A DNA stretch of 64,000 nucleotides from Pseudoalteromonas shioyasakiensis (GTDB lineage: Bacteria; Pseudomonadota; Gammaproteobacteria; Enterobacterales; Alteromonadaceae): assembly GCF_019134595.1 (NCBI RefSeq), contig NZ_CP077771.1, positions 496,001 through 560,000 on the forward strand, written 5' to 3'. Shown in pieces: positions 8,312-26,081 of the stretch. Below the pieces are notes generated by a model. The model had not been told where the DNA came from. It ran no database searches and was given only the letters and a program-made list of their open reading frames with translations. Each line of letters starts with the position of its first letter. The stretch's first letter is position 1. The position numbers and the translations under genes were made by a program.

Positions 8312-8509
8312 GATCAATTTTTTACTAAGCAATCTAATTATGAGAGTAAAAAACATGTAAAGGGGTAATTAGTTAGTAAAAAATTGATCTGAGAGTGTAA
8401 TAAGTACCAATTTTAACGGTAATAGATCACTATTTTACTAACAAAAGGGAGGGGGGAGATCACGCTTTTACTAACAGAAAAAGCGTGAGGGATCATTCTT
8501 ATACTAACT
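8312..8509. repeat. Iteron cluster A: five 19-bp repeats GATC-N7-TACTAACT
   Basis: Five copies of a 19-bp repeat lie at 8312-8330 (+), 8371-8389 (-), 8425-8443 (+), 8458-8476 (+) and 8491-8509 (+). All keep GATC, exactly seven spacer bases, then TACTAA. The last copy overlaps the parB stop codon. A 10-base inverted repeat (CACGCTTTT...AAAAGCGTG, 8461-8487) encloses most of the fourth copy. Together with cluster B these look like initiator-binding sites of an iteron replicon. The rest of the parB-SNF2 gap (8092-8311) shows nothing I can name; a parS site might be there. Confidence 0.85.
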
Positions 8510-9470
8510 AATTGAAGCTATTTAATAGTTTAGTTAGCTGCTCTAAGCGTTTGTCTGTCATCACTTTATTATCAATTTTAACAGATAAGTCACCGCTTTT
8601 GATATTACGCTGTACGCTGACAAATTCACTATCGATAAGGGCCTCACGACGGCTTGGCGCTGCTGGCTCAGCAGTTAATAGCTTAGTAATTGCAAGAGCA
8701 CGTTTATCATCGCTGCTGATTTGCGCTATTTCGCTATCACTACTTACCTCATTTACAAGCTTGGTAAACAGCTGTTCATCACGCTCTTTGGCATTAATTA
8801 GCTTTTTAGCTACTTCACGGCCAACATGATTCGCAGTTGGGTAAAGGCTTAAAACCTCAGAAGGTAAGTTCTCATACGCTTTGATAGCATCAGCAATGGC
8901 TGTGTGTGATACACCTTCAATAGCCGCAATCTCACGATAAGAGCCTTTTTTACCTTCAGCAATAAGCTCATCACGGGTTTGCTGATATGCTTGACCAAGC
9001 TCCCATAGGCTTGGGGCAATGTATTGATCAGATGATACTGCAAGAATTTTAGCATCTTGATCTGTGAAATCTTCAGAACTTAAAACTAAGTAATCAGAAT
9101 TACTTAAGATACATGCTTTACGACGACGAGAGCCTGCTAATACAAGCATTTCGTCACCTTTATCCCAACATAAGGCAGGGTGCTGATTACGGCCGTCTTC
9201 GGCAATTGCAGGAAGGATATCGGCAACTGACTTTTCATTTAGTAATGATTGTACACGGCGATTTTTACCATAGACCTTTGTTTTAGCTTCAATTTCTGAG
9301 CTTGGAATAACCTTACAAACCAAAGTAATTTGACGAGTAGGATCGCTTGGAGCAGGCATACTGATAACATCACCAGCTGAAGCTTGCTCTAGCAAAGCAT
9401 CTAAACTACTGCTTTCGATAGACGTTGAAAAAGGATCTAAGCTGGTATCGTTTTTACGTTTTTTAGCCAT
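8508..9470 (-). CDS. parB: ParB-family chromid partition protein
   Basis: This 320-residue centromere-binding partition protein is transcribed after parA with a 14-base gap. Seen: an AGSRRRKA motif at 112-119, the counterpart of the GERR box of the ParB CTP-binding fold, and a helix-turn-helix around 177-196 (REIAAIEGVSHTAIADA). The C-terminus (280-320) is likely the dimerisation part. It resembles plasmid P1/F-type ParB/SopB more than chromosomal Spo0J. With the adjacent iterons and rep gene it is the partition cassette of the secondary replicon. The start has only a weak ribosome-binding site (GGTAATTAA), in keeping with coupling to parA. Confidence 0.92.
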   Translation of the reverse strand: MAKKRKNDTSLDPFSTSIESSSLDALLEQASAGDVISMPAPSDPTRQITLVCKVIPSSEIEAKTKVYGKNRRVQSLLNEKSVADILPAIAEDGRNQHPALCWDKGDEMLVLAGSRRRKACILSNSDYLVLSSEDFTDQDAKILAVSSDQYIAPSLWELGQAYQQTRDELIAEGKKGSYREIAAIEGVSHTAIADAIKAYENLPSEVLSLYPTANHVGREVAKKLINAKERDEQLFTKLVNEVSSDSEIAQISSDDKRALAITKLLTAEPAAPSRREALIDSEFVSVQRNIKSGDLSVKIDNKVMTDKRLEQLTKLLNSFN

Positions 9471-9484
9471 TTTTATTAATTACC

Positions 9485-10723
9485 TTACTTAGCTGTATTT
9501 AGAGACGATTGAGTTGACTGCCAATTAGAACGGATCAGCATTTCAAGTTCATCCACTACATCTTTGATATTTTCTTGCGCACGAAGTAGTGACTCACGAC
9601 TAGCTAAGCTATCTGACGTTTTTTGATCAAAAATGGTATTAAAAGATGATGAGCTGGCAGTAATTGCCGAACTATGATTAATTGGATAACTCATTACTTG
9701 GCGACCAAATGCACTACGAACATCTTTAACGATGTCACGCTGTGAATGGTTTCCTTTAACATAGTTAGTCACTAAGAATTGCATGAAATCCCAACCTTGG
9801 TGGCCAAGCGCAGCAACTGTATGGTAGATCTCACCTAATCGTTTTAAGTATTTATTATTTGCATCAAAGTCTACAGCTTCTGGATGAACCGGAATTAGCA
9901 TAGACGTAGAAGCCATTAATGCATTATAAAACATAAAGTTAAGAGATGGAGCTGTATCAATTAGTATTATGTCAAATTGATCTTTTACCGGTTCAATAAC
10001 TTTTTCGAGCAATTTATGATAGTGACGTGTTTTATCGTAACTAGAGCTATCTTTTAATAAAGTTGCTGTTTCATGCTCAAAGTAAAAGTCATCCATCCCA
10101 GAAGGCAAAATACGAATATTAGGTATATGGGTAGGTAAGAAAGAGTTTGATACTAACTCATCCCAGGTTTCGTTTTCATCGAGTTCAATACAGTCACGCA
10201 TTAAATCGCCCACAGTGATTGGGTCTGGCTCACTAGGTGGAAAGAAACTTGATGAAGAGCCTTGTGGATCAAGGTCAATAATACCGATTCGATAGCGTTT
10301 AATATTGGTAGTAGCTAGAGCTGCGGCAATATTTACCATGCTCGTCGTTTTACCACAGCCACCTTTTAATGAGTTAATAACGATAACTTGTAATTTATCA
10401 TCAACGGTACGGTGATCAGGTTTAATATCCATGATATCAGCCATAGCAAAAATATTTACTAAGGTATATGCATAGTGGCCATTTGCACCACGTTTGATAT
10501 CAAGTGCATCAAAGTCACCATTATCATGACGGCGTTTTAAGGTACGATTATTACAACCTAATAAATCAGCGGCTGCTTTTTGTGTGTAAGTACGAAGTTC
10601 TTTTTCTTCAGACTTTAGATGAGCACGATAATGTTGAATACGTCCTTCTAGCGATTTTTCAGCAACTTCTGCTGTCGCTTTTAGTAACCTATAAGTGGCT
10701 AGCGCATTATTATTGATAGACAT
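9485..10723 (-). CDS. parA: Type Ia ParA partition ATPase
   Basis: This 412-residue Walker-type partition ATPase has an N-terminal DNA-binding extension, which defines type Ia ParA (P1 ParA, F SopA) that also represses its own operon. Seen: a helix-turn-helix with TQKAAADLLGCNNRTLKRR near 47-65, the deviant Walker A KGGCGKTT at 120-127, the switch segment IGIIDLDPQGSSSSF, and ILIDTAPSLNFM. A good ribosome-binding site (GAGGAAG) precedes the ATG. The repeats TTAAGTATA upstream (10747, 10846, 10876) are candidate operator elements. It is transcribed away from the rep gene. Confidence 0.94.
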   Translation of the reverse strand: MSINNNALATYRLLKATAEVAEKSLEGRIQHYRAHLKSEEKELRTYTQKAAADLLGCNNRTLKRRHDNGDFDALDIKRGANGHYAYTLVNIFAMADIMDIKPDHRTVDDKLQVIVINSLKGGCGKTTSMVNIAAALATTNIKRYRIGIIDLDPQGSSSSFFPPSEPDPITVGDLMRDCIELDENETWDELVSNSFLPTHIPNIRILPSGMDDFYFEHETATLLKDSSSYDKTRHYHKLLEKVIEPVKDQFDIILIDTAPSLNFMFYNALMASTSMLIPVHPEAVDFDANNKYLKRLGEIYHTVAALGHQGWDFMQFLVTNYVKGNHSQRDIVKDVRSAFGRQVMSYPINHSSAITASSSSFNTIFDQKTSDSLASRESLLRAQENIKDVVDELEMLIRSNWQSTQSSLNTAK

Positions 10724-10746
10724 ACTTTCTTCCTCGAAGTTATGCT

Positions 10747-10885
10747 TTAAGTATAATGTCCATTCAAATTGCTGTAAACAAGTATTTAAGGCGACATACC
10801 TTTTATTTATAAGACATTTAATAAAAATTTGTAACTTTACTGATGCTAAGTATAAATAAGTAAGTTTAATATAGGTTAAGTATAT
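10747..10885. promoter_or_regulatory. Candidate ParA operator repeats
   Basis: TTAAGTATAA at 10747-10756, CTAAGTATAA at 10846-10855 and TTAAGTATAT at 10876-10885 are directly repeated upstream of parA. Type Ia ParA proteins repress their own promoter through their helix-turn-helix, so these are plausible binding sites, but the region is very AT-rich and chance is possible. Confidence 0.3.
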
Positions 10886-11039
10886 AGGTATATAAGGTTA
10901 AGATGCTAAAATAGTGAAATATATAACTGATTTAATTGAATATTTACTAAAAAGCCAGATCGTGTTTTTACTTGGTAAAGATCAGATCTTTAATGACTCG
11001 CAGATCAGCCAATTACTAAGCAAAAAATGAGATTTAGAG

Positions 11040-11048
11040 TTATGCACA
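11040..11048 (+). promoter_or_regulatory. DnaA box
   Basis: TTATGCACA fits the consensus TTWTNCACA exactly. A near match (TTATGCACC) lies at 11116-11124. It sits between iterons in the origin region. Confidence 0.6.
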
Positions 11049-11210
11049 GCTTAAACACTGATTTACTCACAAAAATGGTGGCATAGATCAAATTTTTACT
11101 AACTAAATTATAAAGTTATGCACCGAGAGCATGACTAGAATGCCCTATAAGTTGGTATGGATCTGATCTATAGTTGGTACAGATCAGATCTATGCTAACT
11201 TAGAAGCTGT

Positions 11211-11219
11211 TTATCCACA
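11211..11219 (+). promoter_or_regulatory. DnaA box (perfect)
   Basis: TTATCCACA is the strongest E. coli-type DnaA box. It lies between the central iteron group (11150-11200) and the rep-proximal group (11295-11424), as expected for a DnaA-assisted iteron origin. Confidence 0.75.
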
Positions 11220-11492
11220 TGGTGTTTTAAAAAAGCAATTTATGTCGTGTTAATTTACTTTAAAAGGGGTATTAACAAGACATAATTTGAACTGAGTTAG
11301 TAAAATTGCGACCTATCAACTATAACTTAGTAAAAATCTGATCTGAAAATCAGCAATTACGAAGGAGTTAGTATAAAACTGATCCGAACAAATAAATTAT
11401 GATCGGATCAAGTTTATACTAACTTAAACATTTAACTTTTGAAGTTTTATGTGTTGTTATTAACTGTCGAAGAAAAATTGGAAATAAGAACA

Positions 11493-12707
11493 ATGAGCCG
11501 AAAGGTCAACATCTCGGTAGATAACTTACCCGATACATTACGCGGGCAGATCCACGGGGTGGAAAGTGCAATAGATAATGAAAGTCTTGCACTATTTACA
11601 GACAACAAAGATGTGCGTGTTTCAATTGAAAATGCTGCACATGGTTTGAGAGCTTACTCAAATACATTTAATCATTATGATTTATGGGGACGATTTGTCC
11701 GTTCTGGTCATAAGAAGCTTCCGGTTGAAGAAGCACCAAAGAAAACCATCGTTACACGAAAAATCTCTGAAAAAGTAGACGGCATTCTGTATGATGGTGA
11801 AATCAAAATTACACCTGCGGTAGTAAGCACAAGGAAAGATGGTGAAGATGTTGAATATCTTGTTTGGCCATCTGATCGAGAAGAAAAAGTCGAACGTGCC
11901 TTAATTCGTTTAGCCTCTAAAGGAAAAATTGTAAAAATCAATTTTAAGTCTGGTATTCAATACGCAGTTGTTTTTTCAATGAATGAATTAGCACAAGAGC
12001 TGAAAGCTGTTGGCCAGTCGATGCCTTATCCGCAAATCAAAGAATCATTAGAAGCATTACAAGGTTCTAAGCTTTCTTTTAAATATTCAGCAACAGATAC
12101 TCGTAACTCTGATATTGATGACTCATTTTACGAATCGAACATGAACTTTTTATCGTCACTTCATTTTAGTGGCAAAAAAGGTCAGGGTGGTAACGTAAAA
12201 TGTGTAGCTTGTTTGAATGCCTTCGTTCATAACATGATCGATAACCTTGAATACAAAGGTTACTACTTTAATAGTGCTCAAGAATTAAAACGTGGTTTAT
12301 CTCGTTGGATGATGCTTCGTTTATATCATTTGTGGCGTTATGCGGCACCGGGTAAGACCTACCATTTCCGACTATTATCGATTATGGAAAAATATGGCTC
12401 TATTTATTCAACAGACGAAATAACCGAGAATAAATTAAAAGCTTTGCGTCGTGATATGACTACGACAATGAAAGACTTAATTGAGAAAGGTGCAATCTCT
12501 GAATATAACATTACCAATGTTAAAGATGACAAAACGGGTAATATTATTGATTACACATATGAGATGCATCCATCTGATCAATTTTGTGATGAGATTCTTA
12601 CACTTAATAAGCATAACAAACGAATCGAAATTCAAGGTGGAAAACGCATTGTTGAAAATGCTGTTTTAATCGATGAAGATAAAATTGAAGAAATAGTCGA
12701 AGACTAA
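11493..12707 (+). CDS. Replication initiator protein (Rep) of the chromid
   Basis: This protein has about 404 residues from the ATG at 11493, which has an upstream GGAAATAAGA; an in-frame TTG at 11439 would add 18 residues and overlaps less well with a ribosome-binding site. I assign it as replication initiator from position (directly behind the iteron array and DnaA boxes, facing away from parA) and from winged-helix-like segments such as LSRWMMLRLYHLWRYA and RLLSIMEKYGSIYSTDE in the C-terminal half, as in RepA/Rep_3-type initiators. I cannot name the exact family. The iterons near its start suggest autorepression. It ends at a shared terminator with tus. Confidence 0.8.
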   Translation: MSRKVNISVDNLPDTLRGQIHGVESAIDNESLALFTDNKDVRVSIENAAHGLRAYSNTFNHYDLWGRFVRSGHKKLPVEEAPKKTIVTRKISEKVDGILYDGEIKITPAVVSTRKDGEDVEYLVWPSDREEKVERALIRLASKGKIVKINFKSGIQYAVVFSMNELAQELKAVGQSMPYPQIKESLEALQGSKLSFKYSATDTRNSDIDDSFYESNMNFLSSLHFSGKKGQGGNVKCVACLNAFVHNMIDNLEYKGYYFNSAQELKRGLSRWMMLRLYHLWRYAAPGKTYHFRLLSIMEKYGSIYSTDEITENKLKALRRDMTTTMKDLIEKGAISEYNITNVKDDKTGNIIDYTYEMHPSDQFCDEILTLNKHNKRIEIQGGKRIVENAVLIDEDKIEEIVED

Positions 12708-12734
12708 ATTTTTAAATACTACTAACTATAAAGT

Positions 12735-12758
12735 AAAGGCCACGTATGTGGCCTTTTT
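12735..12758. terminator. Bidirectional terminator between rep and tus
   Basis: AAAGGCCAC and GTGGCCTTT form a 9-bp stem with loop GTAT, flanked by A and T runs. It serves both convergent genes. Confidence 0.85.
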
Positions 12759-12765
12759 AACATAA

Positions 12766-13641
12766 TCAATTTGTTACTTGTTCTAAGTAAAGTCTATCAA
12801 CTAAGAAATCATATTCTCTCTTACGAGGGTGACTTACAGGTTTTTGATAATCAGTTAATGTACCAAGTTTTACATCTGGTTCTGTGTTTATCAAAATAAA
12901 AGGTAAAGCAGCACTAACATGATACCGATTTTGCGCTGTATATCTCACATTAACCTGTGGGCTAACTCTTGTTGGTCTACGAATTCGCAATTTTTCTTTA
13001 TCACCTAAACTTGCAACACGACTTTGCTCTTGTGCAACTAGCGCTTGCCAAGCGTGTTGGTCGATCATTCTTGGATTAGAATAACTTGCCGATTTATCCA
13101 ACATTGCTAAGGCCATTTTTTTTGTTAGCGTTTTAGTTGCGTGTTTGTGCATCCAAGTAAAACGAACAGAGTAGGGCGATTCAGTTTCAAAATGGATCTT
13201 ACGATATGCTGAAAGGGTAATGAGATTTGGCACTGCATTGTGAACCGCTTCAAACCGCGCATCATTATTATCGATAGCTAAAATACTATTTTTAAAATCA
13301 GCTTTGGCTTTATTTAATTGATTTATCCTTGCAATGAAATGTTGCTTATCGACATCTTTTAAAACTAATAAGCCTGGATGCCTTTTTAATACTCGACTAC
13401 TTAATCCTGACTTTTTATAAAAATCACCAAAGGAATTTAGAATTAATTTATGAGCATCATCGCCTTCAATTTTATGTACACTAATTGAAGAAGGAACTTT
13501 TTTTTCGTCTTTTATAGCGATATCTGGCAGTTGATAATATGATGCCTTATGAAAACCTACTTCCTTTAATTCTTCACAAAACAAATGAGTTAACTCACTT
13601 ACTAAATCAAACTGACTGCGTATTTCTAACTTGGTACTCAT
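12766..13641 (-). CDS. tus: DNA replication terminus site-binding protein Tus
   Basis: This 291-residue protein is a homologue of E. coli Tus (309 residues), the monomeric protein that binds Ter DNA and stops replication forks from one side. Seen: collinear matches to remembered Tus segments, such as PNLITLSAYRKI (E. coli PGLITLNAYRTL), RFTWMHKHATKTL (RFGWANKHIIKNL), and KLRIRRPTRVSPQ (KLKIKRPVKVQPI), all in the order and spacing of Tus. Divergence is high, yet the match spans the whole protein. Its start codon abuts a Ter-like site at 13643-13658, echoing the E. coli arrangement in which TerB sits in the tus promoter and Tus represses itself. There is no good ribosome-binding site. Confidence 0.88.
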   Translation of the reverse strand: MSTKLEIRSQFDLVSELTHLFCEELKEVGFHKASYYQLPDIAIKDEKKVPSSISVHKIEGDDAHKLILNSFGDFYKKSGLSSRVLKRHPGLLVLKDVDKQHFIARINQLNKAKADFKNSILAIDNNDARFEAVHNAVPNLITLSAYRKIHFETESPYSVRFTWMHKHATKTLTKKMALAMLDKSASYSNPRMIDQHAWQALVAQEQSRVASLGDKEKLRIRRPTRVSPQVNVRYTAQNRYHVSAALPFILINTEPDVKLGTLTDYQKPVSHPRKREYDFLVDRLYLEQVTN

Positions 13642-13642
13642 A

Positions 13643-13658
13643 GGAACACATCTTACTT
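13643..13658 (-). promoter_or_regulatory. Ter-like site 1 (overlaps tus leader)
   Basis: On the minus strand this reads AAGTAAGATGTGTTCC, ending one base before the tus ATG. It shares the 16-bp sequence of two plus-strand copies 100 and 214 bases away and resembles the E. coli Ter start AGTATGTTGT, including the guanine that pairs with the flipped cytosine C6. By analogy it would block forks moving leftward and also repress tus. Confidence 0.65.
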
Positions 13659-13742
13659 AAAGTTAATTCTATTCTAACCTTGTCTCCTGACTAATTAAAG
13701 CCAATTTTTATCTCAATGCTAACCTTATATTTAATTTAAACT

Positions 13743-13758
13743 AAGTATGATGTGTTCC
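13743..13758 (+). promoter_or_regulatory. Ter-like site 2
   Basis: AAGTATGATGTGTTCC matches site 1 at 15 of 16 positions in opposite orientation. Its AGTATGATGT part matches the E. coli Ter core start (AGTATGTTGT) at 9 of 10. By the C6 polarity rule it would block forks moving rightward from the origin. Confidence 0.65.
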
Positions 13759-13856
13759 TTAATTTATTAACTAGTACAAGTTTCTAATTTGATCAATGTA
13801 GAATTAAAAATGATATTTTATACATGTAAAGCTGAGGTTACACTATGGCTACACTT

Positions 13857-13872
13857 AAGTAAGATGTGTTCT
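13857..13872 (+). promoter_or_regulatory. Ter-like site 3
   Basis: AAGTAAGATGTGTTCT is a third copy, same orientation as site 2 and 114 bases from it. Immediately downstream is a dyad TATTTGGTAG/CTATCAAATA (13877-13905). Apart from the Ter-like sites and this dyad, the 13642-14075 gap holds only the upstream region of the DAHP synthase gene. Confidence 0.6.
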
Positions 13873-25764: not shown

Positions 25765-26081
25765 AATTATTTTTACTAATTTAACATAACGTAATTTATG
25801 GGTAATTAGTTATACTTTAATCTTTAGGTATCGGCAATTATTTTAGCCAGTTTTCCACATAAGCATTTCTAATAATTTAATACTTAAAACAGCTATTCAT
25901 TTCAAACTTTTGATTTATCTATGATATCAGAAATTTCGTATTTAATTCATAAGCCACTAATTTTACTTAATATTATTTCTTCATCTTATTATAGTAAGAC
26001 TTTCGGGTTGAGCCATAAGGCTTAGGCCTCAATACCACTCACGATTCTCATTAGTCTAAACAATAATAACAAGGATTCATC

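Follow-up and report, generated by a model that had tools for sequence, protein, structure and literature searches.

According to the parts of the published reports available to us, most chromids of Pseudoalteromonas replicate one-way, as determined by marker frequency in eight strains (PMC7858055), and Chr2 of P. translucida does the same (PMC13342612). The tus gene resides on chromosome 2 (PMC6549158), where it adjoins repA in a conserved cluster of parA2B2, ori2, repA and tus (PMC7858055), and a ter site beside ori2 has been suggested, with a question mark in the figure legend (PMC8347550, PMC10331603). When E. coli ter was used to search the expected chromid ter region of P. tunicata, no homologue was reported in the accessible text (PMC7858055). 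These sources already contain the location of tus next to ori2, the one-way mode and the notion of a ter at this place; what our analysis adds is a candidate site sequence, its predicted polarity and a set of candidate sites on the main chromosome. No Pseudoalteromonas Ter site appears in the accessible portions of PMC12053903, PMC8496264, PMC8707476, PMC12809603, PMC7174701, PMC3025954, PMC8826520, PMC11764726, PMC5357621 and PMC11858219, and a literature search covering mainly the main text of open-access papers returned neither a Pseudoalteromonas Ter sequence nor main-chromosome sites. The letters of the core motif defined below, GTAWGATGTGTTC, were found in that literature in one unrelated virology paper.

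Of the two contigs that make up the genome studied here, C1 (3,822,719 bp) is taken to be the main chromosome and C2 measures 899,440 bp; C2:496001-560000 is the 64-kb window, whose features are collected in Table 1. The ORF that the first-pass annotation had called a Tus homologue matches Pfam PF05472 over residues 7-286 in a profile search (E 1.5e-86) and PDB 1ecr in a phmmer search (E 2.8e-26); its product is 30% identical to E. coli Tus and scores under the cut-offs of the stricter, equivalog NCBIfam tus models. The homology spans the whole Tus fold, and we conclude from these matches that the ORF is Tus, a protein present in 107 of 108 Pseudoalteromonas genomes. The C6-lock residues of E. 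coli Tus are R139, F140, H144, L150, I79 and G149. Residues aligned with R139, F140, H144, K175 and R232 (E. coli numbering) are identical in all 107 Pseudoalteromonas Tus proteins, and leucine is aligned with L150 in 105 of them; the residue at G149 is N in 83/107 and that at I79 is K in 54/107, the alignment being gapped around 79. Q250 and Q252 are replaced by H and S throughout (107/107), and this combination of constant and replaced residues fits a lock that has been kept and a second Ter half that has been altered. One tus gene (G089:C36:7895-8764) contains a single in-frame TAA, yet its Ter sites are retained. A second, divergent Tus (24-33% identity) is encoded on other contigs, probably plasmids, in G005, G007, G013, G020, G030, G037, G038, G062, G069, G073, G087 and G103, and the TAC125 plasmid pMEGA also lists a Tus in the available text (PMC11858219).

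Table 1. Features of the chromid origin region (window coordinates) and, below them, candidate Ter and dif sites in four genomes without sites near tus (coordinates of the respective contigs).
Feature	Position	Strand	Remarks
parB	8508..9470	-	NCBIfam ParB/RepB models, scores under their cut-offs
parA	9485..10723	-	AAA_31/ParA matches
candidate ori2 (parA-repA gap)	10724..11492		AT 71%, 13 GATC
repA, chromid initiator	11493..12707	+	convergent with tus
tus	12766..13641	-	291 aa, chromid-encoded Tus homologue
Ter site 1 (candidate)	13643..13658	-	AAGTAAGATGTGTTCC; one base ahead of tus ATG, tus strand
Ter site 2 (candidate)	13743..13758	+	AAGTATGATGTGTTCC
Ter site 3 (candidate)	13857..13872	+	AAGTAAGATGTGTTCT
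probable dif2	25779..25802	-	CCCATAAATTACGTTATGTTAAAT; 12.1 kb 5' of tus
G044 sites	825,066(-), dif2 862,566, 926,045(+)		further - site at 304,188; 1,618,489-bp replicon, tus at 75,918
G096 sites	20,179(-), dif 55,844, 118,804(+)		contig separate from tus
G099 sites	737,392(-), dif 819,264		tus replicon; 849,851(+) at one mismatch only, no better than chance
G062 sites	32,603(-), dif 97,174		one flank; another site on a contig without listed dif

Three 16-bp Ter-like sites had been proposed upstream of tus in the first-pass annotation, and all three are exact matches to AAGTAWGATGTGTTCY; the rest of the window, searched at up to three mismatches, holds three further matches, all with three mismatches, where shuffled sequences average 2.6. 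Across the genus, the 14-mer AGTAWGATGTGTTC has 357 matches in 104 of 108 genomes and its backward control none in all 108, while among 147 other genomes of the same order the 14-mer occurs in one and the backward control in two. Chance is excluded for the motif: when all 12-mers within 1 kb 5' of tus were counted in 107 genomes, blind to the motif of the earlier reader, GTATGATGTGTT and the overlapping TATGATGTGTTC ranked first, each in 102/107. The base preceding the G of the core sites at tus loci varies (AG 204, TG 91, GG 23, CG 5) and is therefore free, which leaves the 13-mer GTAWGATGTGTTC as the core; the 16-mer marked real sites, but taken as the motif it was too narrow. Core sites bearing G6 number 323 across 103 of the 107 tus loci, and 13 of the 17 loci without the 14-mer carry one-mismatch sites.

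A variant of the motif is also found on the origin side of tus. The G007 locus has a satellite array between tus and repA (10964-12994, 182 bp x 11), and arrays are present in G053, G054, G061 and G094 as well; in these arrays the Ter-like TATGATGTGTTC recurs mostly every 120-215 bp on the + strand, never with G6. Counting all loci, there are 57 G6-less copies of TATGATGTGTTC on the ori side and no + copy there with G6. Such an array is possibly a Tus sponge unable to lock forks.

The G6-bearing half of the motif (GTATGnTGT) is common to the sites here and E. coli Ter, which agrees with the resemblance to the start of Ter, and the retained G, pointed out in the first-pass annotation. The other half reads GTTC here versus AACT in E. 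coli, and this unlike half probably explains the failure of the published search based on E. coli sites; the full E. coli Ter core AGTATGTTGTAACTA has one three-mismatch match in the window, 36 kb from tus and below chance. Bases 1-5 and 7 are variable among functional E. coli ter sites in the available text of PMC10331603. E. coli TerB (AATAAGTATGTTGTAACTAAAG) lies on the tus strand just ahead of tus, where its 15-bp core ends 14 bp short of the ATG, and the position of site 1 fits a possible tus operator; a - site lies 0-30 bp 5' of tus in 54/107 genomes. This arrangement, shared with E. coli, is what would be expected if the motif near tus were only an operator for Tus autorepression and one-way replication had another cause. 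That explanation seems to us very improbable, given that + sites also occur at distances of hundreds of bp up to 20 kb from tus and that dif1 is flanked on another replicon, with 50/50 sites in trap polarity (see below).

The order of sites in E. coli K-12, TerA(-) at 1,341,749, dif at 1,590,750, TerC(+) at 1,609,162 and TerB(+) at 1,684,231, means that a + site stops rightward forks, the polarity assumed in the first-pass annotation. With matches within 20 kb of tus normalised to tus on the minus strand, the 14-mer is on the + strand in 157/159 cases from >30 bp to 20 kb 5' of tus, on the - strand in 38/44 cases at 0-30 bp 5', and on the - strand in 10/10 cases inside or 3' of tus; the 13-mer core gives 232/237 (+), 54/76 (-) and 10/10 (-) for the same three zones. 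The + site, which would block forks outbound on the tus side, is present in all 103 loci having near-tus sites (103/107 overall), and this invariance indicates that the constant part of the arrangement would hold up the fork that departs from ori2 towards tus. The - site, predicted to block arriving forks, is found near tus in 69 of the 103 loci and lacking in 34. The first-pass annotation had assigned outbound blocking to sites 2 and 3 and arrival blocking to site 1; a site for the former role is constant among the loci with near-tus sites, and one for the latter is present in 69 of these 103. Where both kinds are present, the innermost - site lies on the ori2 side of the innermost + site in 64 of 69 loci (median 103 bp apart). 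The order is reversed in the remaining five (G025, G026, G027, G029 and G104, with + about 10 bp and - about 95 bp 5' of tus), so that both forks would stop before meeting, leaving ~85 bp between them if so.

We therefore propose, and consider highly probable, that the three sites are the Ter sites of a Tus-Ter barrier which makes the chromid replicate one-way, and that the same Tus traps forks at dif1 on the main chromosome. What can be read directly from the sequences is the presence of the sites, how well they are conserved, which way they point on either replicon and the skew described below. Chromid-made Tus would bind the three Ter sites, and the rightward fork out of ori2 would be stopped at site 2, with site 3 as a second barrier, within about 2-3 kb. 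The leftward fork alone would then copy the chromid, travelling round the 899-kb circle and past dif2 to meet the stalled fork at the Ter cluster; as it arrives it would also be stopped by site 1, where Tus perhaps represses its own gene. In trans, Tus would act on two Ter sites flanking dif1 as a conventional fork trap of the main chromosome. Fork arrest and repression of tus by site 1 are what we infer from this arrangement, and the weakest steps of the reading are Tus binding and the firing of two forks at ori2.

The latter step bears on the question of whether ori2 might assemble a single fork, the Ter sites being real but the cluster merely catching the arriving fork and preventing over-replication into ori2. 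The number of forks at ori2 is left open in the available text of PMC7858055, where theta plasmids are said to be mostly one-way, and a - site that would stop arrivals is present in 69/103 loci. The constant + site (103/103), on the other hand, is met at its blocking face only by a rightward fork from ori2, and together with the four loci discussed further below this leads us to regard a one-fork origin as unlikely.

The first-pass annotation had placed tus next to a rep/iteron locus. The repA gene does adjoin it, and lies 3' of tus and convergent with it in 106 of 107 tus loci (84-100% identity), whereas no regular iterons were found at 10724-11492, where the repeats are irregular and GATC-rich. 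RepA has no Pfam match at 1e-3 and no NCBIfam match at 0.01; a relation of the chromid RepA to the R1 type is only suggested in the text available (PMC7858055). In two other species, minimal-replicon tests have placed ori2 adjacent to repA and parA2 (PMC7858055, available text). Two matches to the DnaA-box consensus TTWTNCACA, at 11040 and 11211, fall in the candidate ori2, whose GATC density (13 in 770 bp, versus 2.5 per kb elsewhere in the window) suggests that it may be under Dam/SeqA-like control.

One-way replication, for which a GC-skew check had been proposed in the first-pass annotation, is borne out by the skew of the chromid, which is negative on the + strand in 22 of 23 sampled segments, as leftward copying predicts. 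Plain skew on both sides of the locus is near zero (-0.0028 and -0.0034). Skew at fourfold sites, balanced for gene strand, is -0.176 from Ter to dif2, with values of -0.102 and -0.140 to the right of that stretch and -0.095 elsewhere in the sampled segments; from 0 to 10.7 kb of the window, left of ori2, the sign is reversed (+0.085), on the basis of few sites.

The skew also bears on the role of dif2. The dif2 call is a weak match read by eye, the scan itself being at chance level, and was accepted because of its location and its likeness to the chromid dif sites of other species; it differs at two bases from the dif of the G078 and G079 chromids. Among the 35 genomes whose tus contig has a listed dif, the distance 5' of tus is 11-14 kb in 11 and 11-25 kb in 20. 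This proximity, and the use of dif2 as a proxy for ter2 in the accessible text of PMC7858055, would suit a chromid whose end is set by dif2 and XerCD, the Ter sites being relics of an ancestral plasmid. In 10 of the 35, dif is 88-172 kb 5' of tus (G012, G018, G031, G032, G034, G045, G046, G075, G098 and G104), a distance that separates dimer resolution from the presumed end of replication. NC201 and G046, in which dif and tus share a replicon but are 135 and 125 kb apart, are informative here. Between dif and Ter, balanced fourfold skew does not change sign in either genome; it is at half strength in NC201 (+0.066 versus +0.128 outside) and at +0.085 versus +0.075 outside in G046. Plain GC skew from dif to Ter is weak and partly reversed in the two genomes: it is negative over the last ~22 kb before tus in NC201 and in two of six dif-to-Ter stretches of G046, as well as over its last 8 kb before tus. 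The weak or reversed stretches near the locus, in NC201 and in G046 suggest that the barrier may leak. On the fourfold skew, and although the plain skew is mixed, we judge dif2 the less likely terminus, and near-tus sites are retained with Tus proteins down to 51% identity; we give little credence to dif2 and XerCD as what sets the end of the chromid.

The first-pass annotation missed the dif1-flanking sites on the main chromosome. Here, Ter motifs at C1:1,870,044(-) and 1,939,404(+) lie 39 kb to the left and 31 kb to the right of dif1 (1,908,644), both intergenic by the ORF lists save for short overlapping ORFs. Over the contiguous stretch of C1 from 1.80 to 2.00 Mb, cumulative skew has its maximum at 1,907,001, which coincides with dif1 and with neither Ter; this would be expected of forks that mostly run into each other unhindered within the trap. 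The same pattern was found in a set of 30 genomes, made up of G018 with its 8 contigs and 29 of the 32 assembled in 4 contigs or fewer; 12 were searched by the 14-mer only and 18 by the 13-mer core. Every one of the 50 main-chromosome sites has the orientation of a trap around dif1 (median distance 26.6 kb), both flanks being occupied in 21 genomes, one in 6 and none in 3 (G060, G099 and G044). Genomes left out for having no listed dif1 were G052 (main-contig sites -+), G102 (-) and G106 (-+). Taking all assemblies, 109 of the 144 far sites share a contig with a listed dif, and 101 of these are concordant, the other 35 lying outside this count; the eight discordant sites, in G010, G030, G038 and G092, would be chromid clusters on contigs split from tus. 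G003, a single-contig genome without tus, has one Ter site (C1:2342678), 30 kb to the right of dif1, which may have been left behind when the chromid was lost.

Since dif1 is flanked by these sites in trap polarity, the chromid-encoded Tus probably serves both replicons. Some other terminus protein, MatP-like or guiding FtsK, could share the motif and own the main-chromosome sites, which are few and bound to the terminus and whose use by Tus is predicted from sequence. It would have to recognise a core identical to that at the tus promoter, asymmetric and switching strand at dif1 as E. coli Ter does, and we find this hardly plausible.

Four genomes, G044, G062, G096 and G099, have no core site near tus. 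Their Tus proteins are 42-44% identical and form one clade in the Tus tree (support 100/100), and their RepA, 84-85% identical, is still beside tus in the same layout. Sites lie beside dif instead (Table 1), with both flanks exact in G044 and G096 only; one-mismatch searches gave 5 extra matches in three genomes versus 4 for the backward control and carry little weight. The skew of the G044 chromid, the only clade member for which it was computed, falls into two opposite arms, positive at 81-728 kb and negative from 971 kb up to the end of the replicon, with mixed values between them. A one-fork ori2 sits poorly with a retained RepA and layout in these four loci and with the two-arm skew of G044. 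The available text of PMC7858055 describes a single switch from one-way to two-way replication among chromids; the four-genome clade agrees with this switch and provides a candidate cause for it. We lean, with modest confidence, towards a broader proposal, in which one Tus terminates both chromosomes and the position of Ter, not the initiator, sets the replication mode of the chromid: the same RepA-ori2 would fire two forks, and a move of Ter from ori2 to around dif2 would have made a one-way replicon two-way.

If one Tus does serve both replicons, the main chromosome would depend on the chromid for fork arrest, and this tie could help to hold the two together and have them end in step. A 2021 study described one-way chromids without locating their ter sites, and in the drawing of a 2023 review the site carries a question mark; candidate Ter sites are now available in more than 100 genomes with coordinates and polarity, which makes the mechanism testable. 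The genus also offers a natural experiment, which may link the change from one-way to two-way replication to the relocation of a short DNA site, and the sites around dif1 suggest a fork trap on one chromosome that is run by the protein of another.

The locus described here shares its genus and gene cluster with the unidirectional Pseudoalteromonas chromids, for which one-way replication was seen by marker frequency (PMC7858055, PMC13342612, available text). With the Type I fork traps of Edwardsiella and Dickeya (Toft et al., as cited in the accessible text of PMC10331603) it would have in common the blocking of one fork by a single Ter ahead of tus, whereas the trap there lies in the terminus of a single chromosome. 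It resembles the E. coli Tus-Ter trap in its homologous Tus, with C6-lock-aligned residues and G6 kept, in the order - dif + on the main chromosome and in a Ter ahead of tus on the tus strand, and differs from it in having tus on the other replicon, a 3' Ter half of GTTC instead of AACT and an additional Ter cluster beside ori2. R1 is a small plasmid that probably uses host Tus, whereas the tus studied here adjoins the origin of a replicon of 0.9 Mb, its product probably also serves the main chromosome, and RepA matches no Pfam or NCBIfam family at the thresholds given above. What R1-type plasmids share with the chromid, in the account available to us, is a Ter near the origin and unidirectional replication (Krabbe et al. 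1997, via PMC10331603).
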